From contig JAKZAN010000191.1 of the NCBI GenBank assembly GCA_023053545.1, forward strand, positions 1 through 64,000: a stretch of 64,000 nt of DNA, in the 5' to 3' direction. This stretch comes from Lepidurus packardi. Lineage: Eukaryota; Arthropoda; Branchiopoda; Notostraca; Triopsidae. The position numbers and the translations under genes are program-made. The notes under the pieces are model-generated. The model had not been told where the DNA came from and did no database searches. It worked only from the letters and a program-made list of their open reading frames with translations. This document shows, piece by piece, positions 26,107 through 62,751 of the stretch. Every line of letters starts with the position of its first letter. Positions within the stretch are counted from its first letter, which is position 1.

Positions 26107-27113
26107 TCAAATGTCGCTCATCATCCCGCCTAATTTGCGTATCTAACTTTTTGTGTTCGCAGTTATGGGGTTTCCAGGGGTTGGGGTTGGGGTTGGGGTT
26201 GGGGTTGGGGTTGGGGTTGGGGTTGGGGTGGGGTTGGGGTTGGGGTTGGGGTTGGGGTTGGGGTTGGGGTTGGGGTTGGGGTTGGGGTTGGGGTTGGGGT
26301 TGGGGTTGGGGTTGGGGTTGGGGTTGGGGTTGGGGTTGGGGTTGGGTTGGGGTTGGGGTTGGGGTTGGGGTTGGGGTTGGGGTTGGGGTTGGGGTTGGGG
26401 TTGGGGTTGGGGTTGGGGTTGGGGTTGGGGTTGGGGTTGGGGTTGGGGTTGGGGTTGGGGTTGGGTTGGGTAGACCGAGAACGAAGAGATTGGGGTGTAC
26501 TTTAGTGAGCACAAGGACTCCGCAGTCACTGATTCTGTTTTTGCCTAAAGTGAGTATGTAGATAGATCGAATCTGATGCATATGTATAGCTACTCAAAAG
26601 TCCTAGTCTTAATTAATGCTAATGGAATTTAAGTATCTTTAATTAGCAAAAATGGGGCCAAAATTACACCCTTACTCCTTGCAAACGAGCTAATGATACA
26701 TTCTGATGTATCCACACTCTCAGCATACACTTAACACTTAAAACTATACAAACTGTACCTAGATAAAGGTTCTTCAGGTTCTCCACCTTGTGAAGATAGA
26801 CCATCCCTCTGTCGCAGATCCGGTTGTCTCGGAGGTCCAAAGTCTGACAGTTTCGGATGCACTCGCTCAGGCATGGCATCATTGAAGAGTTTAGCCTGCA
26901 TCTGCAAATCGTCAGGTGCACGATACGCATGGACTTGAGCTTCTGTAGGGCCTGCTGCCATCTCCAGAGGCGAGTGCGAGTGCCCCCCACTGCCATGGTA
27001 CAGTCGAGGAGGTCGATGCGCCTGATGGTTTCAGGGAGATGGTCAAAGGCTTTCTCGAATAGGATGTCGTTTTGGAACTTTGCGTACATGTTTTCCTCAT
27101 CAAAAGAGTCCAT
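26107..27113 (-). CDS. LRR protein, paralog 1, interrupted by telomeric array
   Basis: Exon 1 is 27113-26759 (355 nt); a 214-nt intron follows (26758-26545); exon 2 starts at 26544 with [18 protein letters not shown]. At 26468 the coding strand runs into a 292-bp CCCCAA array; past the array the frame resumes as [15 protein letters not shown] and stops at TGA 26107-26109. Without the array the exons (355+76+70 nt) give 167 codons. The protein is an RI-type leucine-rich repeat protein of 166 residues beginning [14 protein letters not shown], with [18 protein letters not shown] and LKNLYLG. Its paralog at 46070 is the same size. As assembled, the array (292 bp, 1 mod 3) breaks the frame. Confidence 0.8.
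26177..26468 (+). repeat. Telomeric-type (GGGGTT)n array 1, 292 bp
   Basis: About 48 units of GGGGTT, G-rich on the + strand, with irregular units near 26220-26232 (GGGGTGGGGTT) and at 26340-26346 and near 26461 (GGGTT). It lies inside the second exon of LRR gene 1 (minus strand). The coding sequence on both sides matches the paralog at 46-47 kb. The insertion point corresponds, within about one base, to the position of a 31-nt intron in that paralog. Confidence 0.95.
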
Positions 27114-27581
27114 GATGTGGTAGTTTGTTAGAGTTTATGACTTTAGACAAATTAATTTAGGTCCATTCCACAAATTTGAACGAAGACCCTCTGTTTTTTA
27201 TAGCTATATTCCGAAGAATTGTTGAAGGGTTTCATGAGATACTGGTGCACAGTTCTGGGTCGTGTGAGAAGCCTTACCTAATTCCTAGATCCTCAGTGAT
27301 TGAACACGATCCGTTGCTCGCAACCCGATTCGGTAATGTGATTCCTTCTGGGCCAGGAAAATGCATCAAACTCGATCCCATCTTTCTTTCCCCTCACTGG
27401 GTTGTGGTAGACGACACTCTACGGGTCTGACTATCTCGGATAGATCATATGCAAAACAGACAATTCCAGTTTGGCGTGTTCACACTGAGACAATAGCCAA
27501 ATAGTCCATTTTACACCCTAGTTAATTAATATTAAACAATCCTTCTTCGATCAATATATTTACACCTCTCTTCTATCATAC
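27114..27581. other. Intergenic, one doubtful open frame
   Basis: About 470 bp upstream of LRR gene 1 and downstream of the GIDE-domain gene. A + strand frame, about 27173-27430, ends in TGA (27428-27430) and includes LATRFGNVIPSGPGKCIKLD, which looks somewhat protein-like, but has no ATG or clear splice acceptor. I make no gene call. Confidence 0.35.
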
Positions 27582-28359
27582 TCATTCAGGCAGCGTAGGC
27601 TCTTCCGTCAATTTCCGGTACTGCTTATGACCCATGTGGCCCAACACTATCACGCTCCCCACTCCACTCCAGATCTTCGCCCTCTTCATCAACTCCACGA
27701 TCCTCTTGTCCAGAAAATTCATAAGCGACTGCTTGTTCTCACCCATTATTATGCGCGGTTCTAGCGTGAGATGTGACTCGCCCTTCGCATCAGTGATTTT
27801 CGTCACCTTCCCCATGACTACTCCGATTTTCCCACATTGCAGTGCTCCTTCCTGATATTGGGTATTGCGGAGCCTATCCCAGATGCCAAGGTTGAGACGG
27901 GGTTGGATTTGTTCGGGGGTGGCAGAAGTCTTTTTGAGATTATATAGATACAATGCTGTAGAAGGTTTCTCGACCAGTACCCACATCAAAGGTGCCGAGC
28001 TATTTTCGTTAGCTGCATGTTTGTTATTTTTTTTATTCGATAGGAGCACTCTGCAGAGTGAAGCGCACCTTTTGTTCAGTCGAATGTAGATGATCATCCT
28101 GGGTCAGTCGAGTGTAGCTGTTAAGGACTGAAGGTTTGCCATCCACAGTGCTGAGTTCATAATCGAGTGCTGAAACGTTGCCACCTAATACTAAATTCCT
28201 CTGCAGTGGTAGATCATCAAGGGCGCGAATGTGGTCGAGACTGAAGGTTGGCGCTTTGTCCACATCCTGGAAGAGGTCAGTGTAGTAGCGTGCTTTTTTG
28301 AAGAGTAGGAAGCCAGCACCAACACAGCTCACACCGAGCAGCAATATTGTCTTCTACAT
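27582..28359 (-). CDS. GIDE-domain membrane protein without RING (MUL1-like)
   Basis: Start MEKTILLLGVSCVGAGFLLF (ATG then TAG = Glu), a single N-terminal transmembrane helix. Then a GIDE-type region: LPLQRNLVLGGNVSALDYEL, KVRFTLQSAP, and after a frame change at the A8 run near 28035, GALQCGKIGVVMGKVTKITD, LEPRIIMGENKQSLMNFLDK. The order matches the intermembrane-space (BAM/GIDE) domain of the mitochondrial/peroxisomal ligase MUL1/MAPL, but the protein stops at TGA 27582-27584 after PTLPE with no second helix or RING finger. Removing one A from the A8 run makes 259 codons; a true frameshift or an assembly indel cannot be told apart here. The start overlaps the 3' end of the next coiled-coil gene. 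Confidence 0.65.
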
Positions 28360-29336
28360 AATTAATATTAGGTAATTCCAACACTGAAGGTGGACTCGAA
28401 TCAATGGATGCGTCGAGATAAGCCTTGATCCGTGCAGGCCAAAAATTTAAAGATTGAAGTTCATCCAGATGAAGACCAGACATACAAATCCATTTCTACA
28501 AATCTCTATATTACGCTATCAAAGTTGTCCAGGTTCCTTGTTCTCCTCACTTGAGGTTTATCAGTACCACGTTTGGGTTTTCTTCCTTCCCCGTCTTCGC
28601 GTTCAGCTCTACTATACACTACTTGATCTACTGCGCCAACTCATTGTTTACCTTCCTCCAGACTTCGCACTCACGTATCATCGTTTAGTACTGAACGAAC
28701 ATGTCAGGCTGCTTAATTGCTTCTTGATAAGCCTTTGACTTTAGAGACAAGAAGTTCACCTTTGCACTATACTCTTCTATCTGTAGCTGCAGCTCCTGGA
28801 CCTTACGGGACTGTTCTTAATTCAGTTTGGTCGGAGGTTGCTTGAGTTTGTTGCTTTTTTCGCGGATATAGGTGATCTGTCCAGAAAGATACTGGTTGGA
28901 GGCCTGAAGCTGGCTGATTTCGATTTCTTGAGGGTTGGTTATGAGTGGCTGGTAGTTAGAACGGGACTTGGTCTTGAGGAGTAGATTAGCGTTAGGAGTG
29001 GAGATTGTATGATGAGAAGGCGAAAGGGAACTCACAGATGAAGTGCTGGAGATCTGGGGCTGAAGGGGCGTGTATCGTGAAATCTATTTTTGGAGTCTGC
29101 AGAATTCGGAATAATTCTAAACTACAACAAATTCAAGAGTTTTGAAAGACTCAGGAGTGTTGGGGGATCGTGAGTCGCGGTGGGCTCATCATGAGGGTAC
29201 TTACATTTTTGAAGTAGGCTTGGAGATTCATGAGTTGCTTTGTGTACTCAAAACCAGGCAGTGTTTGGGTTTCCCTTTCGAGGGATTTGAGGTGCTAGAG
29301 AGTGGCGAGTCTCTAGCGTTGTTCGTTCCTGTACAT
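28277..29336 (-). CDS. Coiled-coil protein
   Basis: Exons 29336-29205 and 29116-28277 (88-nt intron) give 324 codons. Starts MYRNEQRERLATLEHLKSLE; a Ser/Thr/Pro/Asn-rich middle is followed by a coiled coil (QLQASNQYLSGQITYIREK and KVQELQLQIEEYSAKVNFL). An upstream exon is possible because a splice-acceptor-like CAG precedes the first exon. Its last ~27 codons overlap the start of the GIDE gene in another frame; the real 3' end may differ by an unrecognised intron. Unknown function. Confidence 0.6.
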
Positions 29337-29540
29337 GGCTTCCAGGTTACTATGCTGTGTTAGGGTCCAATTATATTGCTTGATTAAGCATTATTGTTAT
29401 TTCCCACTAGGGTTGCGTTCACAGACCCTCTACCAATAAAAGGGGAACAATATTCTTAACTCCTGAAATAATTTAAAGTACCCAACCCCTACAGTTTTCT
29501 TCAATAGTTCGTTTTTAATTGGAAACGTATTCACTTCAGA

Positions 29541-30139
29541 TCATGAGAACGTCTTCTTAGTCATGATGTTGTAGAACTCTTCCTCCGACACCAACCCGTC
29601 GTTGTCTGCATCAGCACGCTCGATCATCTCGTTCAGTTCCGAGTCGTCGATAGTCTCTCCCAACTCCTTCGCCACTCTCCTCAGGTTCTTGATCGAAATG
29701 TAGCCTGTCTTCTCGTCGTCAAACAGGTTGAACACCTTGCGGATGTCTTCGCGAGAATCCTTGTCGGAGATACGGGCAGTCATCAGGTGGAGGAACTCCT
29801 AAAAATCGATCTGTCCGCTACCGTCGGCGTCAAGGTCGCTGATCATCTGGTAGATGGTCTGGTTCTTAGATTCGAAGCCGAGTGATGTCATGGCAGCCTT
29901 GAGCTCTGAATTCCTCGAACAGGTTCGGAAAAGAAGGTGTGGGGGTGGGTGTGAGGATAGAATTGGGTACCTTTGGGATCAATGGATCCTCCTCCGTCAG
30001 TGTCGAAGAGATCGAAGGCCTCCTTAATCTCAATGATTTCGTCTTCGGTGAGGCCGGGCCTCTCGTATGCTTTGGCGTTGAAGCCGGTCTTCTTGGGTGC
30101 GGGAGGGGCAGGAGCAGTGGTCTTGGCAGTTGTCCTCAT
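29541..30139 (-). CDS. Centrin
   Basis: Two exons (30139-29971, 29905-29541; 65-nt intron) encode 177 residues. A short Ala/Pro/Lys N-terminus is followed by four EF-hands: [39 protein letters not shown] and [14 protein letters not shown]. The order, [19 protein letters not shown]-type linker, and size are those of centrins, calcium-binding proteins of basal bodies and the contractile infraciliary network or, in peritrichs, possibly the spasmoneme (the EF-hand protein spasmin is a centrin relative). TAG at 29800-29802 (DFEEF) reads as Glu. Stop TGA; the final residues KKTFS lack the aromatic C-terminus of some centrins. Confidence 0.94.
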
Positions 30140-30683
30140 GTTGTTATAAAGTATGATTAGATGAGATAAAATGATTATGTAGGTACATTTGGATTCGTGC
30201 AATATTTCAATCGTCTGTTTTTGAAAATGATGTCTAGGCATAGTTTGAATGTGGATCTATTGTTAGAAGATAGTATCCAGAATCTGATTCGTCATCTTAA
30301 GAAGAACTCGAGCCGCAGACTGTTAGGAATGCACTCTTTAAATTTAAATAATTCTGCATCTCAATTAAACACATCCTCTACAGCCGTCACGGCCCCCACT
30401 CTTCTCCAGTCGCACTCGTGGGCACCGCATCCTCGATAAGATGCCCTGGCTTCCCCTGTTTGGGACGTGTGCAAGGTACCTTCTGCGACTGGGCAGGCTA
30501 GATGCACAATAACAGCCATCAGGATGCGCTAGTCCTAATTTTATGCACTAATATTTATTCTCTGCTCGGCTACATTATTCTTCCTACCAACTTTTCCATG
30601 AAGCTATCAAGATAATAACCTGCTCTTCTTTGCCACATTCTATAACATAGATTGCACTCTATAATCTGACCTCCATAAACTCA
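30140..30683. other. Intergenic between centrin and EF-hand/PH/kinase gene
   Basis: About 545 bp between two divergent genes. A + strand frame from ATG 30230 ([20 protein letters not shown]) is amphipathic for ~30 codons but then loses any protein-like character; I do not call it. Probably holds both promoters. Confidence 0.4.
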
Positions 30684-33131
30684 ATGTGCGGCTGCGTCTC
30701 CCAATCTTCCCACCCTCTCAGACTCCAATCCCACCACCAAAGCCCCAGTACCCAACCCAAAAACTATTCATCCTTACACATTTCCTGTCACCTTCATACT
30801 TAGTGGCCCAACTCGAGATCCATCTTGTCACTCTCATTTACCAAGACTTGGCTTTCCGCTCCAAAGACAACTATCTGACACGTGAGACCTTCAATACGTT
30901 CTTCCATCTTAATGGACTCTGGGGTGACACTGTATTCAAACGCTTTGACTACTCCAATAAAGGTCATTTGACGTTATAAGACTTTCTGACGGGGATCTAG
31001 AACCTAGTGAAAGGGACATTCTAGAGCCAGATACGGATGCTTTACGAATTCTACGCTAACTAGCAAGGGAACAGGCTGAGCTACAACCAGCTCCTCAAAA
31101 TGGTACACTTTAGATAAATAATATTGCAGCTGCCTTCTTTGGATTATCTCTTTTCGCGAATGAAGTTATTTTACTTTGCGATTGGAAGAATTCATATCAT
31201 AGCCTAGAGGAGGTTGTCCTTGACTGTCCAATCTTCTATAGTTCAGGCCGACTTCCTTCATATCAATATACATATTTCAGACTTACTAACCTATCTTTAA
31301 TAATCATGCTGAGTTTAGCTCTACAGCTACCCCAAAGACGAACTCAAGAGGATGCTTGATGACTAGGACTTCATCAGCAAACTCAATATCTACGAGCGCC
31401 AATACCACTTCGGCAACGATAGGCACATCCTCGAAGACAAAATTGTCTACGAACTCAACTCAGATCCAGACTAGCAACCTTCCTAAAACGGTATCGTGGA
31501 ATCGTCCCCATCACATTTCAACACTCTCAAAAGTATTAGCCACCGGGACGTGCTGAGAGACATCAACCTCACAAAAAATAGCCAAGCCTCCGAAGCAAAA
31601 CATAGTGACCAAAAGAAGACCGTCAAACCGAAGACAACCCACAGAGCCAGCATCGCCCATCTCTCTACCAACTTTCTACATCATCCCAACCGCAAAACAG
31701 CCAAGATTACCTCCAACCTGTCGGCAGTTGTTAGCAAATTCGCTCTCTACATCTTCAAGGAGTTTAAACTTAACAAAGACAAAGATTCCCTGTCCTATGA
31801 ACAATTCAAGTAGCTGATCCAAAAGCACAACAAAGTCTTCCTGTCGTACTTTTAAGGGTTCCATAGCTATGCCTGGAACTTAGACGACCAAGGTGTACCT
31901 CTTTTTAAGAAAATGACGGGTTGGATCTCGTCGGAGTTTGTTCTGCTGACCAAAGAGCGTAACCTGTAGCCCCGCTATCTACTGTATATCAAGAACACTC
32001 TGTTTGTTTTTAGGCGTCAAAAGGACAAAGTACCTTTGGAAATCAAAAACCTCGAAGGACTCTACTTATAGAACATTGAACACGAGGGGCTGAAAGGTTT
32101 TGTGCTGAAGCATAGAGATGGAGTGTATCCGGAGAACTGCTACATCCCCAAAAATCAGTAGCTATTCGAGTAGTGGAGCCGACATCTGAAGGAACTTCGC
32201 AAGTATCTAATCCACATCTTATCATTCTGCTTCTCACCATTCCTAAAATTATCATAGTAAATGCTCTATCGCAGACCTGTACCAGCTTAGCTAGAAAATC
32301 GGTGCCGGCAACTATTCCATCGTCTACAAAGGGACTTAAAAATAGACTCAGTGTCTTGTAGCTGTCAAAGTCGTTGAGAAATTCAAGCTATCCGTAGCCG
32401 AAAAAGAAGTTCTACGCAACGAATGCGCAATCCTAGAACTTTGCCATCATCCTTGTATAGCTCAGTACAAGTAGAAAATCGAGTCCAAGACCCATATCTA
32501 TCTAGTGACTGAACTCATCTAGCAAGGGGATCTTGATGACTATGTGCGAAAGAGTTCGTTTTTGGAAGAGTACGAAGCCAGTCACGTAGCCGGTCAGATT
32601 CTTGACGTCCTTATCTACCTCTCAAAGATGGGGGTGATCCACAGAGATCTTAAACCAGAGAACATTTTGGTCAAGCTGAGCAAGAATAATAAAGAGATTG
32701 AGAGAATCAAAGTCATTGACTTCGGATTTGCTGTCTTCAAGGACACTCTCACGACTCTACCCTCTCATAATAAATTTGTGGGTACCCCGAATTTCATCGC
32801 TCCTGAAATACTCAACTCTGAAGAGACGTACACCGAAAAGGTAGATATGTTCAGCTTAGGCTCCATTGTGTATTATATGCTCAGCGGTAGATATGCCTTT
32901 GACAGTGAGTTTTGCGAGTAGATTAACAAACTGAACGCCTAGTGTGTTTACTCGATTGATGATGGGCACTGGTACAACGTCTCAGCAGAGGCTAAAGATT
33001 TCATATCGCGACTAATGTCGAAGAAAGAAGATAGGATGGGAGCCGAGGAGGCTATGAAGCATCCTTGGATAAGGAAGCAGGACAGTCTCAGATAATACAT
33101 AGGGAAAAATAAAAAGAAGAAATACCTTTGA
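30684..33131 (+). CDS. EF-hand/PH-domain/protein kinase (CDPK7-like)
   Basis: Four exons (30684-30747, 30804-31102, 31319-32202, 32258-33131; introns 56, 216 and 55 nt) sum to 707 codons. Start MCGCVSQSS suggests palmitoylation. Residues ~25-120 are EF-hand-like with weak ligands (FKRFDYSNKGHLTLEDF). A basic linker and another EF-like segment (FKLNKDKDSLSYEQFK) follow. Residues ~330-430 form a PH-type domain (KMTGWISSEFVLLTKERN, RYLLYIKNTLFVFRRQKD, closing LFEEWSRHLKELR). Then a kinase: IGAGNYSIVYKG, AVKVVEKFK, VIHRDLKPENILVK, IDFGFAVFK, GTPNFIAPEIL, HPWIRK. This EF-hand/PH/kinase order resembles apicomplexan CDPK7 rather than canonical CDPKs (kinase first). Ca2+ and phosphoinositide control is inferred. 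Confidence 0.88.
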
Positions 33132-33204
33132 AGAACTGATTAATTTTTCCTAAGACACTCCACAACTGACCTATTCATTCACTCTGAAATCAATCTTCAT
33201 ACCA

Positions 33205-34137
33205 TCACTTACTTCCCTTCAATCCTTACAATTTACCGATAATTTATGTTACCAAAGCTTTAGCTTCGGTCAACCTCCTGTCGTTTGCCTCCTCTCCCTC
33301 CATCACAGGCAGCATCCTCGAATAGCGGTTCAAGATGTCAAAGCCCACATTCGACTGCAGTTTTCGAAGACAAATCGGACAGAGTTCGTACGGTTTCCGC
33401 ATACTCTCTTAAAGGTGGTTTGTCCCATTCATGACACAGTTGTAATAGATGCAGTGTCTCATCCCAAACATGTGTCCGATCTCGTGCACCATCACCTTTG
33501 CAGCACGGAAGAAAATTTTGCCGTAGTCTGTCTCATACGATCCTTTTTCAAAAAATCTTTCCTAATATCGTGCGAAAGAGAACACGCCAGTTCGATTTCT
33601 GATACTAGCAAGTCCGAAAACATAGTTCCACTCATCTCTGGGGTAGAGATCTGATAATGTAATGCCGATCAAACAGAACGCATCTGCAGGCAACTTCGAC
33701 TCCAGCTCTCGCAGAATTTGTGTTGCGTGGAATTGAATTTTACCAGTATACCCATTTGTCCTATGGGCCACATTTTTCATTTTTCTGATCTCAAGGGGCT
33801 TCAGGGTTTTGAGGGTCACAGTGTCATAGAAAGCCTCGCAATATGTTTGCAGCCTTTGAAGAAAGCTAGCAGGAATAGCGCTCTAAAGCGGAAGAATATA
33901 GATTGTGTTCCTCTTTGCATCAACATGGTTGTACATTTGACTTTTGTAGACATCGTATGTTTGACCTTCCTCCTCATGTTCCCAGAGCCAGTCTGAAGGG
34001 GAAGGCTTGGTGATGGGTTCGAAAAAAGGTGTAATTGCTTCAAGCGACCTGCGGACTTTGTCAGGAGCGCCTATCAGAGAGCCGAGACCTTGTTTGCGGG
34101 TGTATGTGTTGGGCACGTTGAAATGTGACTTCTGCAT
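33205..34137 (-). CDS. AMZ: Archaemetzincin zinc metalloprotease
   Basis: A single exon of 311 codons. The zinc site HEIGHMFGMRHC is followed at the right spacing by YNCVMNGTNHLEESMRKP and LCPICLRKLQ, the four-Cys signature unique to archaemetzincins. Upstream, CLIGITLSDLYPRDEWNYVF precedes FGLAS. The first Glu of HLEES is TAA 33409-33411; other family members have Glu there. Archaemetzincins are aminopeptidase-like metzincins of unclear physiological substrates. No signal peptide, so probably cytosolic. Length 310 aa fits AMZ2-type proteins. Confidence 0.93.
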
Positions 34138-34374
34138 GGGGATTCGATAATGATATTATGATAAAGTGTAGTATATGCATCGGTAATGAAGGGTATGATT
34201 CAGTCGATTATGAATTAAAATGGACGTAGATTACTTCAGTTTTTAAGAAACAAAGGTCAGAACAGAAGATTAAAGCCTAGAACAAACCGAAAGGCTGACA
34301 TCCTTATCCTCCAAACCACAAAATATGCAGAAGGCACACCTCTCATCTTAATAATACACGGACACCCAGTTTTC

Positions 34375-35420
34375 TCAATGTTGCCCTCCATTCGCCAGCT
34401 TCTCCTTCTATTCTGCTCCTTCTCCCCAAACTCCCTTTTCGTCTTCCTCATCATCATCTCCTCTGTCATGCCCCTTTTCCCTAGAATAATCCTATTCATG
34501 CTCTTTCGCTTCTTCCACGCCCTCCTCATCCCCCTCTAATTATTCGTGCTGGTCTCTTTAGTTATGATGGTGGCGCATCTACTTTCGCCCCAAAATCACT
34601 CCATTCGAACCGTAAGGTTCATAGACTCCTTCATCTCCTCCGAACTTGGTTGGCTGTTCTATCGGAGACTCTGAAGGCAGGTTACTGTCATCCAAAGACA
34701 TAGTCTTGACCTTCTTCTTCCTACGATTCTCTTCTAGCATTGGTGATATGTTGAGCTTCTTGGGTTTCTTTTTAACTTCCAGAGGGTATTCAGACTTGGG
34801 GGTAATGGCTGGACTGGCAACATAATGGACAACGATTTCCTCTTCACGTTTCTTGTCTGGAACCGTAGCATTAAGAAGTCTCCTTTATTGAAAGAATTCA
34901 AACATGTCCTGTATGACATTTTCTGGCTGCTCGAGTTCTGGTAGGTCAACCTTGATGCTAGTATAGACTAAAATTCACACTTTCCCGGAAATTTAAATAA
35001 GAAAATGATGTTTTACACTGGGCAAGACTATCTTGGGTGATACCGGGTATTTGGAAGTACTTCGCTAGACTATAGACTCATAAAATGCTGTCAACATCGG
35101 TCGAAATTACTTGAGTACAAGAGCACAGACGGTATCTCTCTACTGGGTGGTTCTCAGCTGGATCTGCTGGATTTATTGTTCGAGTCTGCAGATGTGGTCC
35201 AACATTGGAATCGTGACTTCAGTCCTGCCTGCCGACATTTGAAAGTTAGAAGATGTGGTTGGTTATTGATTATACATTCGGGGTAGTCTCGGTAGATGTT
35301 GAGTTCTTTTCTTGGGGGGAAAGCGATATCAAGGTTGGGGTCATTGGTTTTGCGTTTGTCTTTGGGCTGCTTCTTGATTTTTTTGGGGACTTCGGGATCG
35401 TACTTGGGCTTAGATGCCAT
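34375..35420 (-). CDS. Charged protein, acidic C-terminus, unknown
   Basis: Four exons (35420-35276, 35228-35111, 35069-35019, 34957-34375; introns 47, 41, 61 nt) join in phase to 299 codons. Start MASKPKYDPEVPKKIKKQPK (basic), a central RTEVTIPMLDHICRLEQEIQ and NLAKYFQIPGITQDSL, then VIQDMFEFFQERRLLNATVP, and a final run of Asp/Glu/His. The N-terminal basic and C-terminal acidic split suggests a nuclear or nucleic-acid-associated protein, but this is inference; no family recognised. The exact phasing of three small introns supports the model. Confidence 0.7.
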
Positions 35421-35783
35421 GGTTTTTAAGAAGTTGAAGAGGAGTGGAAAAACGAGGCAAAACTTGACAAAATATTTTATGTTTTTTAAAGAGCTAGTCA
35501 ATACATAGGGGCTTGTGTTTTTGGAATTTTTGTTATTGTTGCGATTCTTTCTTTCCCTCAATTTAGATCGTAAATATGGATATCTTGCAGATAGGGGCTA
35601 AGCCGAGCATTTATCTGTCATGTCAGTTTGGACAGGCAGTAATTCAAGAAGGTATTGGGTACTAGTCACGAATATGTTCAAGGCTCATACTCATTAAAAT
35701 CTAAAAAATACCTCTATCGCTAATCTCGAAAGAGTCAATAAACACAAACATAGCCACAAGTCACACTCAAGACCAATCACATT

Positions 35784-37622: not shown

Positions 37623-37758
37623 AGGTCGCCGAAGGACGGTGCCAGCATTTAATATAGACCCTGCACGATCGCACAAACTCATTTATTAGATCATTGACAA
37701 CTATATAAAATAGGATTGGATCGCAGAGGAATTACACTCTGCCTTTTCGATCGCACGA

Positions 37759-39108: not shown

Positions 39109-39439
39109 TGTGAAGAGTAATTTAATATTTGTAATTCTATGGTTTTTCTATTCTGGAGAAAAGTTTCTATGAATGATAACACACAAGGGGGCAACTTAGA
39201 TAACTGAGTAAAGCCTCAGGTAATATCAACGTGTTTTAGGGTGCTGCAAGAAGAGGTACCACTTCGTAGGGCAGAATAACATTTCAAGGTCTGCCCAGCA
39301 ATTAATTTCCAAAACAATAATGAACCGGATAAGAAGTCTAGAAGCGAGTCCCATAGAACCTACATAAATTCTTGTTTGCTCGAACTAGATAATATTTCAT
39401 GCCTTGCCCAATTTATCACACGCCCCTTACTGCATTCCC
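39109..39439. other. Intergenic, no gene seen
   Basis: About 330 bp between the K+ channel start and the stop of the next minus-strand gene; no plausible frame. Likely channel promoter. Confidence 0.4.
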
Positions 39440-46069: not shown

Positions 46070-47064
46070 ATGCATGCATTCGAAGAAGATGACATGTACG
46101 CTAAGTTTCAGAATGATATTCTTTATGAGCAAGCCTTCGACCATCTGGGAGACTCAATTCGCAGGCTCGATCTCCTCGACTGCACCATGGCTGTCGGAGG
46201 CACTCGCACTCGTCTATGGAGATGGCAGCAGGCTTTCCAAAAGCTGAAGTCGCTGCGTCTAGTGCAGGTTACGATCAGTCGGTGCCACTTCAATTCCTCC
46301 ATGATGGAAAGTCTGAGCGAAGGCATCAAGAACTGCCAGACCTTAGATCTGCGTGACAACCGAATCTGCGACAAAGGAATGATCTACCTGCACAGACTAG
46401 CAAATCTTAAGAACCTTTATTTAGGTACTGCTTCATTTGGAGTCGGAATTGTGGTTTGTAAGAGAAGCGGAGTGTTAGTATTGGTGGGTATGAGGAGTGC
46501 TGGCTTTGGAGGCAGAAGAGACGTGCAGGCTTAGTTATATTTGAAAATAACACATGTTGAAGTATGTCGATTGCCAATAGTACTAATATCTGACTTCTGA
46601 GACACAATATATTAATTCTGTAACCCAAATTAAATCCCCCATTCCAACCTTATTCCTCATCTATACTTTTCTGGAACCCCGCTCACTCCCTAGGTAAAAA
46701 TAGAATTGGGTTGGGGTTGGGGTTGGGGTTGGGGTTGGGGTTGGGGTTGGGGTTGGGGTTGGGGTTGGGGTTGGGGTTGGGGTTGGGGTTGGGGTTGGGG
46801 TTGGGGTTGGGGTTGGGGTTGGGGTTGGGGTTGGGGTTGGGGTTGGGGTTGGGGTTGGGGTTGGGGTTGGGGTTGGGGTTGGGGTTGGGGTTGGGATCGG
46901 GAACACTGGTGCTCTCGCCCTCGCCCTCTTCGCCAGAAATCAACTTAAGTGGCTCCTCCTCAGTAATCAATGCTCTTGGTAATTAAAACATAGTCGGAAA
47001 TCCCATTTCTGCCCAAACTAAGGCCGAAATCCGGAGATTAGTGGACGGGATGACAGATATCTGA
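46070..47064 (+). CDS. LRR protein, paralog 2, interrupted by telomeric array
   Basis: Exon 1 is 46070-46424 (355 nt, the same length as in paralog 1); a 269-nt intron; exon 2 begins at 46694 (GKNRI), is broken by the array 46707-46897, and resumes as [20 protein letters not shown] to 46962; a 31-nt intron; exon 3 46994-47064 encodes [19 protein letters not shown] and the TGA. Without the array: 355+13+65+71 = 504 nt, 167 residues, and the joined [15 protein letters not shown] is a textbook RI-type LRR. As assembled, the array (191 bp, 2 mod 3) shifts the frame. TAG at 26143 in paralog 1 corresponds to GAA 47026 here. Likely an LRR adaptor; partners unknown. Confidence 0.8.
46707..46897 (+). 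repeat. Telomeric-type (GGGGTT)n array 2, 191 bp
   Basis: About 31 perfect GGGGTT units with partial units at both ends, inside exon 2 of LRR gene 2 (plus strand, so G-rich in the sense strand). Left junction AGAAT/TGGG, right junction GGGAT/CGGG; removal leaves AGAATCGGG, or equally AGAATTGGG if the GGG direct repeat marks the ends. Confidence 0.97.
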
Positions 47065-49951: not shown

Positions 49952-50168
49952 GGGTGGGAATAAGGTGGTTGCGAATGTTTAGTGTTCGGAATGCAGAGCC
50001 AAAATAGTTTGTGGATTGTGGTCGCCAGAAGTGGTATGCGTGTAGAGTCTTATTAGATTGACTAGATATAATAAATTAGATGAAACTAAAGTATTCAAGA
50101 TAATGGGATAATGTAGTATACGCTGAATGTGGAGCCAGACAACAATGCATAGATACTGAGGCAGCCTA

Positions 50169-53712: not shown

Positions 53713-53802
53713 ATCCGCACCGCCAGAATCATATAGTTTCGTCTGACTTCGTGTTGACACTGACGAATTGATTATCGAAATTATCTTAATATTCGTTCTT
53801 CC

Positions 53803-54597
53803 TCACTTCTTTTTTGGTTTCTTTGATCCGTTAGTTAGTCCTGCAACCGCTTTCGATAGTTTATCCTTGAAGGATTGATTGTTGGACACCAGAAGATGCT
53901 AGAATACGTCCTTCACGTCTATATCCATCTGCACGTCTTCGAATGAGCTGTCTAGAGCATCTTCTTAATCCATCCTAGTTTGATGCAGAGTCTCAATCAA
54001 CTTTGCAGCAGCCGGATTAGCACACTGATCTCCTGATGCCTCCTCCTCTATGAAATCCTCACATCCATCTTAAGAATGTGTTTAGGAACGATCGCTGCGT
54101 TCCTGTTGAGAATGTTATTATGATTTTTGATGTTTAGCTTTCTCCCTGGAGTTACCCTTGCTTTTTGCCCTGCCTAAATATGATGCTTTGGTAGGACCTG
54201 TAGTTTATGCTAACTTCTTTTTATTCTTGAGAATGTGTATCTTGGTTTCCAGCATCTATTTCTGATGGTCCTGCTGGCCTAGTTAAGCCTTCGTCTTGTT
54301 TTTCCGAGCCAGTTTGGCACGCCAGTTCAATGTTGCATCAGCTTACCGCATGACTTTATCAATTTCAAGCTGGTCAAAGGTACAGTTATATTCTTTGGGA
54401 TGCACAAACCCTCCTTCTCGGTTTTGGGTTTTGCGTAACTGGTTTTCGAGCATCGCCTTAATCTCTTGAGGAGAATACATCTGGACGCCTTCTGCCGAGA
54501 AATGTGCCTGTTGGGGGTTGTTCTAAGTGATGTTGAGATGGGAGCGATCTCGGACCGTCGCCCTCGAACCGACTTGGTTTCGCAGATTCGTAGTCAT
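53803..54597 (-). CDS. Unknown charged protein, 264 residues
   Basis: One frame of 265 codons. MTTNLRNQVGSRATVRDRSH; then MYSPQEIKAMLENQLRKTQN, EYNCTFDQLEIDKVMREADA, a basic helix RAKLARKNKTKAELGQQDH, a Gln/His/Ser-rich acidic linker, and a final NQSFKDKLSKAVAGLTNGSK plus a Lys tail. Many TAG/TAA as Glu. The tail resembles nuclear localisation sequences. A run of about 18 T lies just upstream of the ATG on the + strand. Function unknown. Confidence 0.7.
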
Positions 54598-54686
54598 GAG
54601 TAATGCGAAGAATTTTTTTTTTTTTTTTTATGAGGTATGGAATGAGTGTTCAGTTTTATTAATATACAAGACTTATTCATGTTTCA

Positions 54687-55706
54687 TCATCTACCCTCAA
54701 ACCTTATCCCTAAAAGCTCTTCACTCCGTTGCCATAGTCTTTCTTGGTTCACTACATCTAAAGCCGCAGGGTTCACATCAGAAAGCCCGCAGTCCGCGTA
54801 ATACCCACCATTCTTTAGGTTCTCAGATTTCTCTAATATCGTATAAAGACTAGTCTGGGCGCCTTGGGTAGCGTTCTTGGACAACATAAAAAGAAAGGGG
54901 TAGAGCATGTAAATTAGAGCGCGTTTCCAACCAGTCACCATATACCGCGACAATTCGGTGCGAACCACGCCTGGATGAAGGCTAAGCACTCTGGCATTGG
55001 GGTTTATAGCCTGGACTCTACGTGCCAACTCTTGTGCGAAGAGCACATTGGCCAGCTTACTTCTAGAGTACTGCATCCCAGCGTTGTATTCGAGTTTACC
55101 ATCGAGATTATCGTAGTCGATTACCACAGGTTATTTACGGTTTGCAATCGATCTGAGATGAGCTTTACTGCTAACATTGATGATGCGCAGATTGTCACTG
55201 ATACGCAGTAGATCCCAAAGACGACACGTCAGAAGGAAATGACCCAGGTGGTTCACACCCATCTGCATCTAAAATTGTTCCTCAGTCAGCGTCAGCTCTG
55301 GCAGCATCATGACACCTGCGTTGTTGACTAGGATATCCACGCGGCTGAATTTTTATCTCATTTCCTGGGCGAAGGCTTCGATTGATGCCCGTGATCCTAG
55401 GTCCAACCTTCGCCACTAAACCTGCTTGTTACCGGAATTTTTGCGTATGTATTCGACGGTAGCCTTGCATTTATCGGCGTCTCTTGCTGCGATGACGACG
55501 GTACATCCTTCTCGCGCGAGTCCGAGGGCTGTCTCTCGACCTATTCCAGTATTGCCACCTGTAACGATGGCAACATTGCCTGTTAGGTCTCTCCTGATTT
55601 TACAGACTCCTCCGTTGAAGTAATTCTTGGCGAGGAAGAGGAGAGAAAAAGTAGCAAGACCGAAAGCTAGTTTGGGAGTTGAGATGTTGTTGAGGCTGAT
55701 TTTCAT
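54687..55706 (-). CDS. Short-chain dehydrogenase, retinol-dehydrogenase type
   Basis: A single exon of 340 codons. An N-terminal membrane anchor ([18 protein letters not shown]) precedes a complete SDR domain: [20 protein letters not shown] (cofactor loop), [31 protein letters not shown] (NNAG), INVSSKAHL (catalytic Ser region), [12 protein letters not shown] (YxxxK) and [14 protein letters not shown]. The Arg after the second strand suggests NADP(H). This is the RDH11-14 / WWOX-like class, ER or mitochondrial membrane; the real substrate in a protist is unknown. Five internal TAG/TAA as Glu. Length 339 aa is typical. Confidence 0.92.
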
Positions 55707-55956
55707 GAAAGTTATATTCTGAGATGAAGTAAAGATATTAATGGTGGATGTCGGGATATTGATATAGGAGTGGAATAGTATTGTGACTCTGAAAGAGGAG
55801 AAAGTGCAAGCGAGGTAGTCGATGCAAAACCATTTGTTTAATTAATCTACCTAAATCCCGACAAAAGGAAGCAAACAAAAACTAGATTAGTCAAACACAA
55901 ATCTTAAAAATAAACGATACACTACATATCCATCGCCAACAGCCCATACATACTTC

Positions 55957-56856
55957 ATGAAAACCCAAACCAACTCTCTTCTCATCGCTATGGCACTCGC
56001 AATAACTACCTTTTCTCTCATCGTCAACCCAGACTCCCAGCCTCAGCAACAACACCCGCTACAGACCCATACTCATCCCTCCCATACAAGCAACCCATCA
56101 ACCATGCCTCTAAACTTCAATTAAACACTCTAAGATCCTCCCGCTGATCTTGATTGGCGCCGATCGATACAAATCTCTGAACCCAAAAACCAAGGGCAGT
56201 GTAAATGTTCCTGGGCGTTTACGATTGTAGCAATCAGCGAGGCTTACCTTGCTAAAAAATACTCCGGTCTTTTTTAGCTTTCTGCAGAATACCTTCTTGA
56301 ATGTAGCGACAGATCTGATTGCGCAAACGATAACCTGGTTACAGAAGGAGTTGAACGACTCCGCACTGCGACTGGCCTACCTCTCGACTCGAGTTATCCC
56401 TACAAAGCCCTCACTTAATCTGAAGGAAAACCTTAAACTCCTGGTATATGCACTAGGCCGTATATCGTAAAGGTAACAGATGTCATCGAGATCAAAGAGC
56501 TAACGACTTTTGAAGACATTAAACTATAGCTAGTAAATGGACCTATTGGAGCTTCGATGGTTGAATAGCCTGGATTTGAGAACTTTAACGGAAGCATACC
56601 CTATATTTGCAAACCGGAATCCTCAGAAAGGACGGCGAACCACACCCACGTGGTTACAATTGTGGGATATACTAAGGAAGGGAATTATATCGTGAAAAAC
56701 TCGAGGGGAACTGACTGGGGAGACAAGGGTTATGCTTTGGTTAGCTCTGATGAAAAGCATAATTGTGGTATCGGAAAGTTGGTGATTGTTCTCGAGGGGA
56801 AACTTTTGGGCTTATGCCTTTTGGTTCTCTGCCTGGCTGTAGTGCTGGTATTTTGA
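55957..56856 (+). CDS. Papain-like (C1A) protein with Ser in place of catalytic Cys
   Basis: A single exon of 300 codons. N-terminal signal/anchor (SLLIAMALAITTFSLIV), a short Gln/His/Pro spacer instead of a full inhibitor prodomain, then a papain fold: LDWRRSIQISEPKNQGQCKC followed by SWAF. Aligned with NQGSCGSCWAF, the nucleophile Cys is Ser (residue 85). FELSAEYLLECS corresponds to LSEQxLVDC (TAG = Glu). The active-site His is in NHTHVVTIVGYT and the Asn in IVKNSRGTDWGDKGYALV. The C-terminus is a hydrophobic helix (LGLCLLVLCLAVVLVF), so it is membrane-anchored. Ser-for-Cys papain homologues (e.g. some Plasmodium SERA proteins) are mostly considered inactive or atypical. Confidence 0.85.
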
Positions 56857-56954
56857 TTATTTAGCCAATGTGCTTCTTGACTATTGGATTTAAGACACCT
56901 CTGATTTTTGTTTCAAGGATGGACCACTTAAAGTTATCCCTATAAAATAAAATG

Positions 56955-58948
56955 TCAAGCAAGCTTTGGAGGTTGAGGAACTCCCGAATGTCTGGGACTC
57001 TTTTTGTCCTTTAGTGTCGGCACCGGCTCATATTTATGGTGGTTGTACCCTTCGCTTTCAACCTTCTCATACATAGATATTTTCTTTCTGTTGATTTTGT
57101 TGTCTGTCGATTTCTTTAGCACAAAGTATTCTGCATTCCGGCCTATACAGGGTGCCTTCTTGGGCTTGCCTCGACGAATATACCTTTCGTTATCCTTGTG
57201 CTCTTCCCCACCGAAAATCATAGCATTTCGGTATTATCCATCTTCTTTATCGGATTCTACGGTATTCTTCTTTATCACTAACGGTGAACTGCCAACGCGA
57301 AGGGATTTCTTTTTGTAGGTGTGATGGTTTCTAGAATTTAACTTCACTCGCTAAGGAGCTAAGCTGTTGCAGCTACTTTTTTGGACAGTCTGATAAAGCT
57401 GTTGTTATTTATCGTTTCTGAAAGGACTTCGCATTTTTTGTTTTCGAGCTGTTGTGTTTTTTAGAGCAACCTAGTTGTTGATTCGAGGACTGTGAATCGT
57501 GGATCCGTTCTTGATGGTGGATTTGTTCTGATTGCTACTAGCCCTGTCGGTATAAGGAGATTGATCCATGTTATTGGAAGATGTCAGATAGTCTTCGAAT
57601 GCCTCGCATCTTAGGTGATGAAATCCTGAATGCCGATTATTGGGGATCTTCGGCTTTTTAGGAACTACTGAAGAAGTCTGAGGATATGGACTCGGTGTTT
57701 CCATTTCAGGAAAAAGGATTTTATTATGGCTATACGAAACCGTGGTCGAGGAACATCCTTACAACACATTATTAGCAACTCCTCCTCGCTCTAACTTTTT
57801 GCATAGCAGATGATAAAGTGTAGTCGCAAAGTTATGCTTATTCTACTACAGACTCTGCCTGGCATAGCTAGCCTAAACCCCGTAGGTCTCCATCTCTCCC
57901 AGCACTGCAAGGTTGAAGGTTTCCCGAACTCTTTCTTTATAGTCTTGGTAGTATTCCTTGCAGTTCTTGACCAGCCATCTATGGAATCTGATCTACTCCA
58001 TTCTGTATCTCTTTTTTCGATCCTTATGCAGGATATTCCTTAATAAATCTTTCAAGTCTTCACTCGTTTCGGTAAGGAACTCTAACTCTTCCGTGGTTAT
58101 CTTCTTGTGCAGTTTCTTGATATCCGGATCCTCAAAAGGCAAATACCCACAAGCCATTGCAAAAAGCACTACCCCTGAACTCCAAAGATCAGTTTCTATG
58201 GGGTAGTAGCTTGCGCCGATAAGCATTTCCGGAAGTGCATAACAGGGTGATCCGCATGAACTGTGTAGCTCTTTAGCACCTTCGAATATTGTGCTCAGGC
58301 CGAAGTCAACTATTTTGATATCTAAACTCGGAGTCAGAAGAATATTCTAAGGCTTCATGTCTCGATGGGTGACATTAAGAGAGTGCATATAGCCGATAGC
58401 TGAAAGGAGCTGGGAGAATATGCGTGCAACTTCCCTTTACGGGAGTCTTTGATGATTTTTGATATAGTCGAAGAGCTCTCCATTTTCAACTAGTTCCATG
58501 GCGATGTAGAGATGGGTGGTACTCTCGAACATCTCGTAGACGCGTATGATGTGAGGGTGTCGCATCTGTTTGAGGATGTGCATTTCCTTGGCGAGTCGTT
58601 GGGTGTCATTTTTTCGAGTGATGCGTTACTTGTCGAATACCTTGATGGCTACCTGTAGGAAACCAATAAGACGATGGAGTGGAGTTATTTGTGTTAAAAT
58701 GGAAACGAGAGATTCTGGCTGAAAAACTTATAGCCGCAAATACTAAATATCATAAGAATTAAAAAATTGGATTCCCTTTTACTCAGTCAGCAGATGGGTC
58801 CCTAGTTTGACTTTAGCGAAGGTGCCTTTGCCGATCGTGTGTCCTGTCCTCTACTTTCCATATGCCATAGTTCAGATTATGAAGGGAGCAGCATACCTAT
58901 TTAGTAGGAGCCGATGACTTCTCGTGCGATACTTTCAGTAGCCTTCAT
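56955..58948 (-). CDS. SNF1/AMPK-type protein kinase with long C-terminal tail
   Basis: Three exons (58948-58897, 58843-58776, 58652-56955) sum to 606 codons. Kinase motifs: YEIGHTIGKGTFAKVKLG, VAIKVFDKERITRK, MELVENGELFDYI, THRDMKPENILLT with the E as TAG 58347-58349, VDFGLSTIFEGA, SCGSPCYALPEMLIG, DLWSSGVVLFAMACGYLPFE, and RFHRWLVK closing the domain. The tail (about 330 residues) runs on without TGA through SYARQSLEENKHNFATTLYH to a basic, Ser/Pro-rich end; a standard-code search would split it off as a separate ORF at 57704. Intron 2 (58775-58653) reads GG..AG, not GT..AG; see findings. CaMK/SNF1 class; the exact subfamily is not settled. Confidence 0.88.
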
Positions 58949-59398
58949 CGGGGGGTTTAAAAGGGTAGGGTCAGAGTAACAGGACTGATATGATAAGGAG
59001 ATCGTGGATTGTGATCAGCAAAGGATTGAGTTATTGTTGTGAGGATGGCCAATATTTTGATTGGATTGCTTGTATAGGAGTGTTTATCTTATATTTGAGG
59101 AGTCTGATGTGATTATTTTATTTTTATATTAAAATTCAACGCTGCCGACTATTAAATGCAGGTCATAACAATGCAACATCGTCAATAAGGTGAGACCGAC
59201 CACAGATCCTGATTCGAGCCCCCGATTTGGAAGCCGGCATGGTAAGTATGGGTGTCGATACTGGCACGCATGAACCACTTTCGGGCAACTCTTACACCTA
59301 TTTGAATCGCATTTAATTATTATGGATAAACTAGTCCTTTTCCGATTTTTGTATTGCTATATAAGAAATGGACTTCACAAATGAACCATTGTTTTTCT
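58949..59398. other. Intergenic, no gene seen
   Basis: About 450 bp between the kinase start and the aquaporin stop. A stretch near 59190-59260 with GATTCGAGCCCC looked tRNA-like but does not fold. Probably the kinase promoter. Confidence 0.4.
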
Positions 59399-60091
59399 TC
59401 ATGCCTCGATCTTTCTCGGGTAGAAAGGAACATATACGTAGTCATAGTAGATCGCTGCTACCAGTGCTCCCAGCAGAGGCCCGATGATGAATACCCAGCA
59501 GTTGTATAGCGACGTCCAGTCCCCGTTGATCACTCCATTCATGAAGGTCAAGCCGATGCCCACGCCAGGGTTCAGACAACCGCCGGTGTGAATCGCGAAG
59601 TGTCGAGAGAAGAACAGCGCCACTGCGATGATCAGCCAGCAAAGGAAGTTGTTGGGGGTGAAGTTGGTTTGCTCGTGGGTCACAACGAGAATCGTGCAGA
59701 CGAAAACGAATGTGCCGAATAGTTCAGAAATTATATCCCCTGTGAAAACTCGGGTTGTCGTATATGTGTAGGAGGGACCGTGGAGCTCACCGGTGCAGAA
59801 CCATGAGAAAAATCCACCCAAGCATGCCCCAAGGACCTGGCCACCCCAATAGTTGAGCATGGTACCAAAGGAGAAGGGACGAGAACGTTGGCAGTAGATG
59901 CCAAAGGTGACGGCGGGGTTGACATGACCACCACTGAAGGGGGCGCTAATGATGATACCAGCGAGGAGGGAGAGTGCGACAAATGTATCGCCAAGTATGG
60001 ATTTGCTGGAGTTGGAGACTCCGAAAGCGAGGAGGAGTGTGGCGAGTGCTTCGAAGAGAACGATTTGCTGTGTTTTGGTGAGTCTAGTCAT
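59399..60091 (-). CDS. Aquaporin / MIP channel
   Basis: A single exon of 231 codons starting MTRLTKTQQIVLFEALATLL; an upstream in-frame Met exists but the extension is not conserved-looking. Six hydrophobic helices and two half-helices: SGGHVNPAVTFGIYC (first NPA) and HTGGCLNPGVGIGLTF (second motif NPG instead of NPA). GGQVLGACLGGFFSWF, IISELFGTFVFVCTILVVT and FIIGPLLGALVAAIYYDYVY are other typical helices. Arg is not found at the usual position after the second motif, so selectivity is uncertain. Water or glycerol flux, perhaps at the contractile vacuole, is inferred. Confidence 0.92.
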   Translation of the reverse strand: MTRLTKTQQIVLFEALATLLLAFGVSNSSKSILGDTFVALSLLAGIIISAPFSGGHVNPAVTFGIYCQRSRPFSFGTMLNYWGGQVLGACLGGFFSWFCTGELHGPSYTYTTTRVFTGDIISELFGTFVFVCTILVVTHEQTNFTPNNFLCWLIIAVALFFSRHFAIHTGGCLNPGVGIGLTFMNGVINGDWTSLYNCWVFIIGPLLGALVAAIYYDYVYVPFYPRKIEA

Positions 60092-60517
60092 GGTGAGTGG
60101 GATGTGATTATATGGATAATTGAATAGAATTGTTAGTTGTGCAATATGGAGTGGTATGAAGAAAGAGATGAGAAATATTGATTTATTGCGTATTTTACGT
60201 AACTTCTCCGAAAATGGCAAGGAATAGGAAAACAGATTGTGAGCAAAGTCTGTCTTCATCGCTATCTATTTTACCACAGATATTTGAAAAGTAAATGGGC
60301 ATCGAGTTTGGGCCCCATCACTTCCTGTGTCTTACACTCACAGCTCGGACTCTTTGTCTACAGTCATTTTATCAAAATACTCCGGTTACAAAACTATCCG
60401 AATACCAACACGAAATACTCCTTAGTTACTAAAATATATACACATATCCTTCACATTCCTCATCGACTCTACAGTCCTGCTCCACTCGCCTTGCTTCCAA
60501 CAACTACTCACTCTACC
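60092..60517. other. Intergenic, no gene seen
   Basis: About 425 bp between the aquaporin start and the transporter stop. Open frames on the + strand (60239-60700) are antisense shadows of the transporter and show no family pattern. Confidence 0.4.
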
Positions 60518-62207
60518 TCAATACTTATAGAACTTGTCTTCCTACCAGTATCGGCGTCCATCGATCTCATCCTTAAGCTAGTGGATACTGGTGTTCGGCA
60601 TCTTCCTGCTAATCGGTATCACGACCACTCCGACACCAAACAGTACCCAATAAAGCACCTCCAAGTTGTTTTTGAAAATATAAGGTATCACTCCTCCTAG
60701 TGACGCTCCACACATCACGAATCCGTAACCCATCACACGGAATATTGTAGGGAAAGTCTCCACCCCCCAAATTACCATTATTCCATATCCAGTCGCTCCG
60801 ATAAAGCGGATCACCACCGAAAAGATTAAGTTGGGTATTTCGCGTGACTAGTGCTCCGTTGAATAATACACTATTTCTAGAAGAAGGACTGCAAGAACCA
60901 GCAGCCCTATCTGGCGGTAGACTGACCTATTGATTTTCTTGATGATAAAGCATAGAGTGATGTTGGCAATCGTGGTAGTGACGGACATCATAGATCCGCG
61001 CACATAGGCTGACACATTGCCATCTAGAAGGATCTGGGCAGATACCATTGAGAACTTGAGAATAAATAGCGAAAAGAAGCCTGTGACAAGGCGTCTCTTC
61101 AGTGATGGAAAGTACAAAGCTCTTGGATAGCTGAGAGTATTGAAGTTCTGATAATCGTCAACCCAGCGACTACGCGATAGATCGATGACCACTCTTTCGA
61201 AGTTATTCTTTGCCGCAATACGATTTAATAGATTGAGACCTTTGATTTTATTGCGGGTGAACACAAAGCGAGGAGACTCTACGGTATAACCCATGAGAAA
61301 GTTGCAGAGAAAAGCGGGTCCGGCAATCATAATGAGTATGAGCATACTAGAACCCAGGGCATTTATCAGAGGTTGGGCTACTAGGCTGAGAATAACCTCA
61401 CCGACGCCGAGAGAAGCTAGAGCAACAAGACTGCCAATCGACCTAAATTCATTGTCTAATTTCATTATTTTAGAGTTCAAAAAAGAAGAAATAACTTTGA
61501 ATTGTTTGATAGTTAGTTGTCCTGTCTTAAGACGATCAGTAACATTAGGGATGTGATACAAAAATATTAGCGTTACTTGATTCTTCGAAGAGGATGGTGA
61601 GTTGGAGTAAAAGGGTTGGAAGACAGTTGATGGCTGCTAAGGTATACCCAAATGTTATCAGGAACTGGGTTTGCGCTAGAGAGAACACCATTAGCCCTAA
61701 TATAAAGAATCTCCAGGAGATCTTGATAGCTACGAGTCTTCCTTTATAGTCGCCTACCATGCCGAAAATCAAATACCCAAAGATGGACAACATTTCAGGC
61801 ATCACTTTATATAGAAGTCTTATTGGTTGCTTATCACAGAAGAGCCCGAACTTATGTGTGAAGGTGCCTACATTTAGTACATCCGTTTCAGGGTTAAATA
61901 TATGTATGTTTGGGCCGCTATTGCACACATAGTCTTGGCACTCCTGCGCAGTGAAGTCTGGGTTGTGCGGACAGAGGTACACTGGTTCTTGAAAGGTATA
62001 AAGCTGTTGGAAGAGGAAGAAGGAGGAAATGACCCAGAACGGTGCGAAGCTGAGAAGAATTTTTTTTTGATATGCATTTTGGAGACCTACAGACTCGAAA
62101 CACTACTGGAAGGTGCGAAGTTGCTGTCTTTCCTCATGGATAGCAGAATCTTCTGGGACAGATTCTACTTCGGTGAGTGCTCGTAGAGAGGAGTCATGGC
62201 TCTCCAT
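60518..62207 (-). CDS. Major facilitator superfamily transporter
   Basis: Two exons (62207-61577, 61521-60518; 55-nt intron) join to 545 codons. Cytosolic N-terminus (MESHDSSLRALTEVESVPED), first helix ILLSFAPFWVISSFFLF, a large Cys-containing extracellular loop (PHNPDFTAQECQDYVC), then the MFS signature GYLIFGMVGDYKGRLVAIKI, a central loop after LLLQLTILFEES, and the second six-helix half with GSLVALASLGVGEVILSLVA and VIRFIGATGYGIMVIWGVET. The large loop after helix 1 and the overall layout recall SLC22 organic-ion transporters. The C-terminal tail NTSIHELKDEIDGRRYW uses TAG as Glu. Substrate unknown. Confidence 0.85.
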
Positions 62208-62339
62208 TTTTGATATTCGGGCTCTAGCAATGACTAGTAGAGTAGGACTTGGTTCGCCTTTGTATAATTAGTTGTGGGGTATTTATAGAGAGAGAAGGGT
62301 TGGGTTTTTTATTTAGTTTTTATTCGGCAATGGCCTCAG

Positions 62340-62751
62340 TTGACCTTTAAGAGGCATTTACTACCTTAAACTCTGTGTATTTATGATTGTCAATGCAGAT
62401 CCAATTATACAAATAACAGCACCTGTTGTGGCTATTCGACTTTATTTGCGATCCCAGAGACATACGTTGGCTCCACCGGTGGTTGGGGTTGGGGTTGGGG
62501 TTGGGGTTGGGGTTGGGGTTGGGGTTGGGGTTGGGGTTGGGGTTGGGGTTGGGGTTGGGGTTGGGGTTGGGGTTGGGGTTGGGGTTGGGGTTGGGGTTGG
62601 GGTTGGGGTTGGGGTTGGGGTTGGGGTTGGGGTTGGGGTTGGGGTTGGGGTTGGGGTTGGGGTTGGGGTTGGGGTTGGGGTTGGGAAACATCTCAAAAAT
62701 AGTACTCTTCACTTCTATATGTCTTTTCCCAGAGTATAAAGTCTAGTTCAT
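62340..62751 (-). CDS. Small membrane protein interrupted by telomeric array
   Basis: The frame starts at ATG 62751 (MNETLYSGKRHIEVKSTIFE, 23 codons to 62683), is broken by the 202-bp array, and continues from 62480 as TGGANVCLWDRKESRIATTG followed by a hydrophobic helix VICIIGSALTIIN. With the array removed the two parts are in frame. No in-frame TGA follows before the MFS transporter start, so the true 3' end is unknown: a short intron near 62370, or an extension into the transporter gene, are both possible. Unknown family; one transmembrane helix. The coding nature of this locus rests on composition and is weaker than for the two LRR genes. Confidence 0.45.
62481..62682 (+). repeat. Telomeric-type (GGGGTT)n array 3, 202 bp
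   Basis: About 33 perfect GGGGTT units, G-rich on the + strand as in arrays 1 and 2, ending at CCGGT on the left and GGGAAAC on the right. It interrupts a minus-strand open frame that resumes in register if the array is deleted (202 = 1 mod 3). Confidence 0.97.

Follow-up and report, generated by a model that had tools for sequence, protein, structure and literature searches.

Strand-biased telomere-repeat arrays inside ciliate contigs of a mixed assembly: probable ends of shorter telomere-capped isoforms

The addition of telomeres at alternative sites is well known in ciliates. Published work reports 46,705 potential sites for such addition in Blepharisma (PMC9942806), highly variable telomere addition sites in Paramecium bursaria, about 30% of them in coding regions (PMC7702705), and many chromosome isoforms in Oxytricha (PMC6937825). 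The P. bursaria reference itself consists of artificial long contigs that were deliberately built from overlapping minichromosomes (PMC7702705).

The DNA analyzed here, referred to as the window, is a stretch of 64,000 nucleotides that makes up positions 1–64000 of a contig of 68,175 bp (C180), the end of which is capped by a (GGGGTT)n telomere. The same repeat is also found in the interior. A 12-mer of the telomere unit had 104 matches in the window and none in 100 shuffles of it, and these matches, along with TRF, delimited three long internal (GGGGTT)n arrays on the + strand: 26177–26471 (site 1), 46706–46895 (site 2) and 62478–62685 (site 3). TRF by itself placed them at 26177–26470, 46708–46895 and 62481–62685. 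All three are within a few bases of the positions given in an earlier note on this DNA.

These arrays are very probably the ends of shorter, telomere-capped isoforms that were carried into longer contigs by directional assembly. The earlier note had listed an assembly effect at alternative telomere-addition sites as one of three candidates, and it is strongly favored among them; the other two were telomere-repeat internal eliminated sequences (IESs) and telomerase-mediated insertion at double-strand breaks. The observations that bear on the choice are the strand bias of the arrays, their exclusion from left contig ends, their telomere-like length, in part their phase, and the subtelomere-like character of the left flank.

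Arrays and genes in the window

Two of the arrays are inside LRR genes, one on each strand. The gene at site 1, on the minus strand, has its first exon at 26759–27113 (77% identical to exon 1 of the site-2 gene), followed by a 214-nt intron at 26545–26758, predicted from the paralog and from GT-AG borders. Its second exon precedes the array at 26472–26544, with a border that is ambiguous by a few bases, and the 3’ part after the array is at 26107–26176, up to a TGA stop. The gene at site 2, on the plus strand, has its first exon at 46070–46424 and a putative intron of 269 nt at 46425–46693. Its second exon starts at 46694–46705, before the array (this border is also ambiguous by a few bases), and resumes after it at 46896–46962. 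A putative 31-nt GT-AG intron at 46963–46993, at the position of the array in the site-1 paralog, and a last exon at 46994–47064, up to a TGA stop, complete the gene. The site-1 array falls within 1–2 bases of the position of this short intron, a match that is unexplained though probably a coincidence.

With the arrays deleted, the coding sequence is 501 nt (166 aa) at site 1 and 504–507 nt at site 2 (167 aa, or 168 aa when an ambiguous codon is included), in line with the 501 and 504 nt of the earlier note. The residues of the two array-free proteins correspond along their length, and both proteins match LRR in Pfam. When exon 1 was used to query the genome, the matches listed were these two paralogs only; among 38 candidate homologs of the array-free protein, none reached an E value of 0.001. 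At the array position of either paralog, the other has uninterrupted sequence, save for the putative 31-nt intron of the site-2 gene. For this reason, insertion without loss of sequence at sites 1 and 2 is well supported, as judged from this comparison of the two genes.

Spliceosomal introns were considered for these arrays and rejected. On direct reading, the borders of the site-1 and site-2 arrays have no usable GT donor with an AG acceptor. On the sense strand, the array is C-rich at one LRR site and G-rich at the other. The earlier note observed that none of the array lengths is divisible by three, a point that carries little weight because the G/T borders are ambiguous and the lengths vary with their placing.

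The clean excision that restores the two reading frames could be taken as a sign of telomere-repeat IESs – germline inserts that are removed from the soma – in a contig that would then represent germline or unprocessed DNA, and the telomere-capped, ciliate-like nature of the contigs is also in keeping with such inserts. Evidence against this reading comes from the rest of the assembly, below.

The claim that all three arrays sit in coding exons holds for sites 1 and 2, in the LRR genes, and fails to find exon support at site 3, where coding evidence was found on neither flank. Frames spanning the joined flanks of site 3 score −0.115 to +0.011 per codon, and a Pfam search with two minus-strand frames of the right flank gave no match, a result still compatible with a short or unusual exon. 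By eye, the array is between a minus-strand transporter-like frame and a plus-strand nuclease-like frame, neither with Pfam support. The transporter-like frame by site 3 itself scores low (−0.051 per codon), so the coding score is not decisive there. An exonic position for site 3 is not supported.

Orientation, position and length of arrays across the assembly

The assembly (344 contigs, 108.6 Mb) is mixed: C1, of 14 Mb, has an open frame that by eye resembles C2H2 zinc-finger sequence; the GC content of C344 is 60% over its first 10 kb; several contigs have AT-rich satellite at their start; and only some of the contigs from C73 on are small and telomere-capped. Because the assembly also holds these zinc-finger-like, AT-satellite and GC-rich contigs, the ciliate probably came along in an animal sample, as a cobiont or contaminant. 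Reading frames of the ciliate contain TAA and TAG, which in long frames free of TGA are about as frequent as the background predicts, and both were assumed to encode glutamine; one 394-aa frame, a carboxypeptidase (Pfam S10, E 1.6e-90), continues past a TAA. Several contigs have exact sizes – 25,000 bp (C10), 125,000 bp (C76), 110,000 bp (C78), 70,000 bp (C166), 62,500 bp (C193) and 65,000 bp (C198) – and such round numbers suggest cuts at fixed bins by a scaffolding step. The stretch C104:1–320 reads as N.

At least 64 arrays on 52 contigs were listed, from pattern rows for the 3’ border of arrays and from loci read as sequence. Fifteen of the 64 are known from pattern rows alone, with long size assumed (C74, C76, C141, C166, C175 twice, C181, C196, the second of C216, C244, C246, C285, C312 twice and C330). 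For one border pattern, the matches listed extend to C193, so that an array on a later contig is missing if the five bases next to a full unit include no A or C. Length was measured in 45 arrays, each an unbroken G/T run of at least 100 bp that does not run off its stretch. This set leaves out arrays broken by an A or C (C169, C195, C265 and the inner array of C313) and the short native repeats of C93 (two), C306 and C341, which are runs of (GGGGTT)3–4, three forward and one reverse. Flanks were measured at 43 sites, the same set minus the arrays of L013 and L026, which end at most 15 bp from the right contig end. Measurements of size and flanks scanned G/T runs only; strand counts took in both strands. 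At L022:1520–1560, a GATTGGTT-like simple repeat directly follows the array.

All 43 long interior arrays read as sequence are G-rich on the + strand of the contig, whatever the direction of the gene. In a census of both strands of the window and 50 fetched array loci, there were 49 runs of at least 40 bp on the + strand, 45 of them the measured arrays, and none on the − strand. All 49 are G-rich reading away from the left flank, the chromosome-end orientation and one-sided cap expected of alternative telomere addition. Forward and reverse rows numbered 43:2 and 45:3 for two of the 3’-border patterns, and the five reverse rows came from a three-unit native repeat of C341 (four) and the start of C124 (one). 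A third border pattern, with several rows per array, gave 233 forward versus 5 reverse rows, the reverse ones being outside the matches listed. Contigs with at least two listed interior arrays have them in one orientation, both within and between contigs. If contig orientation is taken as arbitrary, the agreement of 45 contigs by chance has a probability of ca. 6e-14 (0.5 to the power 44, by our arithmetic).

A + bias across contigs cannot stem from the DNA itself, as DNA cannot know which of its strands is printed. The differing sense-strand orientation between genes, to which the earlier note had drawn attention, is accounted for in the same way, because the orientation of an array is tied to the contig and not to the gene. 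The orientation of IESs should likewise ignore the contig, yet the arrays are + throughout, a contradiction that makes the IES reading very unlikely.

Telomerase repair of breaks has been proposed for the short interstitial telomeric sequences of vertebrates, and telomere repeats inserted at double-strand breaks would be compatible with the lossless insertion at two sites and the loss of sequence at another, as well as with target-site duplication that is not above chance. Such repair predicts orientation that is independent of assembly coordinates, and the row counts of 43:2 and 45:3 and the 49:0 runs contradict it; the reading is very unlikely. It is also hard to credit that the arrays are physically internal in somatic chromosomes, with a polarity that would be fixed, for example, by a telomerase confined to one arm or to one replication strand, and tolerated through removal from the DNA or RNA before use.

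The position of the arrays agrees with the reading as carried-in isoform ends. Forty-two arrays on 36 contigs were read as sequence and lie more than 1.2 kb from the right contig end; all are 16,586 bp or more from the left end, and the closest to the right end is 2,180 bp from it. Under uniform placement, the empty left stretch has a probability of 6e-6 (4e-5 with one array per contig), with the limit of 16,586 bp chosen post hoc, after the data were seen; for a fixed first 10 kb without arrays, P is 0.001. When those known from pattern rows are included (53 arrays on 45 contigs), the limits do not change and the P values become 2.7e-7 and 3.7e-6 (one per contig). The test set aside 11 of the 64 listed arrays, all less than 1.2 kb from the right contig end. 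Six of these are 174–769 bp from that end, as expected of ragged alternative ends, and five are within 14 bp; among the long interior arrays, one reaches to less than 1 kb from the right contig end.

The empty left stretch would fit contigs that were built from a capped left end, with the first read-length free of carried-in tails. The absence of arrays from the first 16.5 kb of contigs also argues against telomerase repair. Of the 40 array contigs examined, 34 begin with a telomere – that is, they look somatic, which is contrary to germline IESs.

Interior arrays have a median length of 190 bp (125–333 bp, n=45), and terminal telomeres 214 bp (100–276 bp, n=15). The outer end is ...TTGGG in 17 of 45 interior arrays versus 10 of 15 and 20 of 34 terminal telomeres. 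Length and outer phase are thus as alternative telomere addition predicts, in that GGG is the commonest ending in both groups, with a match in phase that is partial. Many interior arrays look as if they were complete telomeres with a molecular end of their own, and lengths like those of whole somatic telomeres are a further point against telomerase repair.

Flanking sequence and loss at the arrays

The sequence on either side of the arrays was compared by GC content and by a coding score that rests on codon usage, with long TGA-free frames of the array loci as the training set for the model. The score is weak for short or intron-rich genes; sites 1 and 2 are unflagged, and L055 and L060 read as genes by eye. 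The left 150 bp of interior arrays have a GC content of 0.371 and are coding at 1 of 43 sites, and the right 150 bp have 0.438 and are coding at 11 of 43; control windows from the same loci have 0.436 and 1932 of 5000. Left and right flanks differ in GC (Wilcoxon P 1.1e-6), and the right flank compared with the control for coding score gives a P of 0.10. The inner flanks of true terminal telomeres (n=14) have a GC content of 0.363, with 0 of 14 coding. The left flank is AT-rich, gene-poor and subtelomere-like, and the right flank looks like ordinary interior. This asymmetry is evidence against both IESs and telomerase repair.

Some 150 bp further in, the left flank has a GC content of 0.427 and is coding at 11 of 43 sites. 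Because the right flank resembles this inner sequence, a stretch not far from the array length seems on average to have been lost at arrays. By the score, coding sequence is on both flanks at 1 of 43 sites versus 736 of 4000 control points. The earlier note had named a mostly intergenic location genome-wide as a finding that would refute its reading. By the score the location is largely intergenic (1 of 43 left and 11 of 43 right flanks coding), although the score misses exons, those at sites 1 and 2 included. Exonic arrays are more frequent than 1 in 43, yet apparently still a minority.

The loss of sequence can be followed at one locus on C316 (L060). Its left flank ends in MKAFILVGG, presumably the start of a mannose-1-phosphate guanylyltransferase. 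The right flank enters the GMPPB-like protein near residue 59–61 (extrapolated without gaps), with query residues 30–31 aligned to residues 88–91 of solved GMPPB chains, and the gene is missing about 50 codons at the array, leaving introns aside. When the genome was searched for the domain, the matches listed were just the C-terminal part at C316, complete domains on C186 and C51, and parts on C1; a genome search for an array-free second copy of the left flank returned only the flank itself. Deleting the array to restore the frame, as the earlier note proposed, therefore works at sites 1 and 2, where the paralogs support each other, and not at C316, where the ca. 50 codons are missing.

We considered whether each array stands in for as much sequence as its own length; this rule is not general, since sites 1 and 2 lose nothing; the points that fit it are the average displacement of ca. 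150 bp and the ca. 50 codons lost at C316. At L062:2107–2340, the last 13 bp before the array recur just after it, and the 3’ part of a SNAP-like gene makes up the right flank.

The flanks also bear on whether the assembler, or ligation during library preparation, joined a complete chromosome end to an interior fragment that is unrelated to it. The left flank does resemble a chromosome end and the right flank a random interior point, and L063 has matches to RNA-recognition motifs on the left and a PRP21/SURP-like gene, apparently without its start, on the right. However, the flanks of sites 1 and 2 are one gene in register, and the two flanks of L055, like those of L060, read as a single gene (by eye, and for the right flank of L060 also by search). 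Chimeric joins are an unlikely explanation for the arrays as a whole and may apply to some of the other sites.

Repeats between the 400-bp flanks reach 13 at the junction in L062 and 13 at a distance in L016; the control has a 99th percentile of 12 and a maximum of 36. Direct repeats of at least 2 bp at the exact array borders were found at 4 of 43 sites versus 7.7% of mismatched pairs, with borders set at the first A or C, so that the count may pass over repeats that contain G or T, such as TA. No junction repeat above chance was seen that would point to IESs, by a test that is weak for repeats of this kind.

Probable assembly origin and known systems

Under the favored explanation, the contig would be the macronuclear chromosome of a ciliate, assembled together with the DNA of the animal and of other organisms. 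At each array site, some copies of the chromosome would end in an added telomere and others would continue. If the assembly builds a contig in one direction, the tail of a telomere-ended read (125–333 bp) could be carried into the contig, and a read from the longer isoform would then take over beyond it. An assembly step in which a read may overhang by a few hundred unaligned bases would let tails enter in one direction only. Each array would then be the genuine end of one chromosome copy, placed by the assembly inside a longer one, and no molecule need hold an internal array. The isoforms themselves and the stitching step, which is a matter of assembler behavior, are what we infer from the orientation, position, length and flanks.

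Some points count against this explanation. The match in phase is partial. The loss is uneven – none at the LRR sites, about 50 codons at C316, ca. 150 bp on average – and no single stitching rule yet covers these cases. Two of the three sites in the window are exonic, both in one gene family of two members. The arrays are nevertheless most likely an assembly error that exposes a known habit of ciliates, rather than a new kind of DNA insert. No description of telomere tails carried into contigs in this way was found in the literature searched; one may exist.

If the arrays were left in place, annotation would turn them into frameshifted pseudogenes, exotic introns or telomere-repeat IESs. They probably mark where the chromosomes of the ciliate are cut and capped. 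Tests for strand bias and for exclusion from the left end are a cheap and general check for telomere tails in long-read contigs of genomes with many chromosome ends.

Each of the known systems shares some features with these arrays. As with ciliate IESs, their removal restores the reading frame at two sites, but the arrays here are nearly pure telomere repeat, strand-biased and on telomere-capped contigs. As with interstitial telomeric sequences, tandem telomere repeats are found between unique DNA, but those sequences are real loci with an orientation that should be independent of contig coordinates, and the orientation here depends on them. The alternative telomere addition of Blepharisma, P. 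bursaria and Oxytricha likewise places the telomere repeat at interior, variable sites, some of them coding. The difference is that in those ciliates telomere-ended reads are seen against the contig, while here the telomere is inside the contig, and always in one direction.
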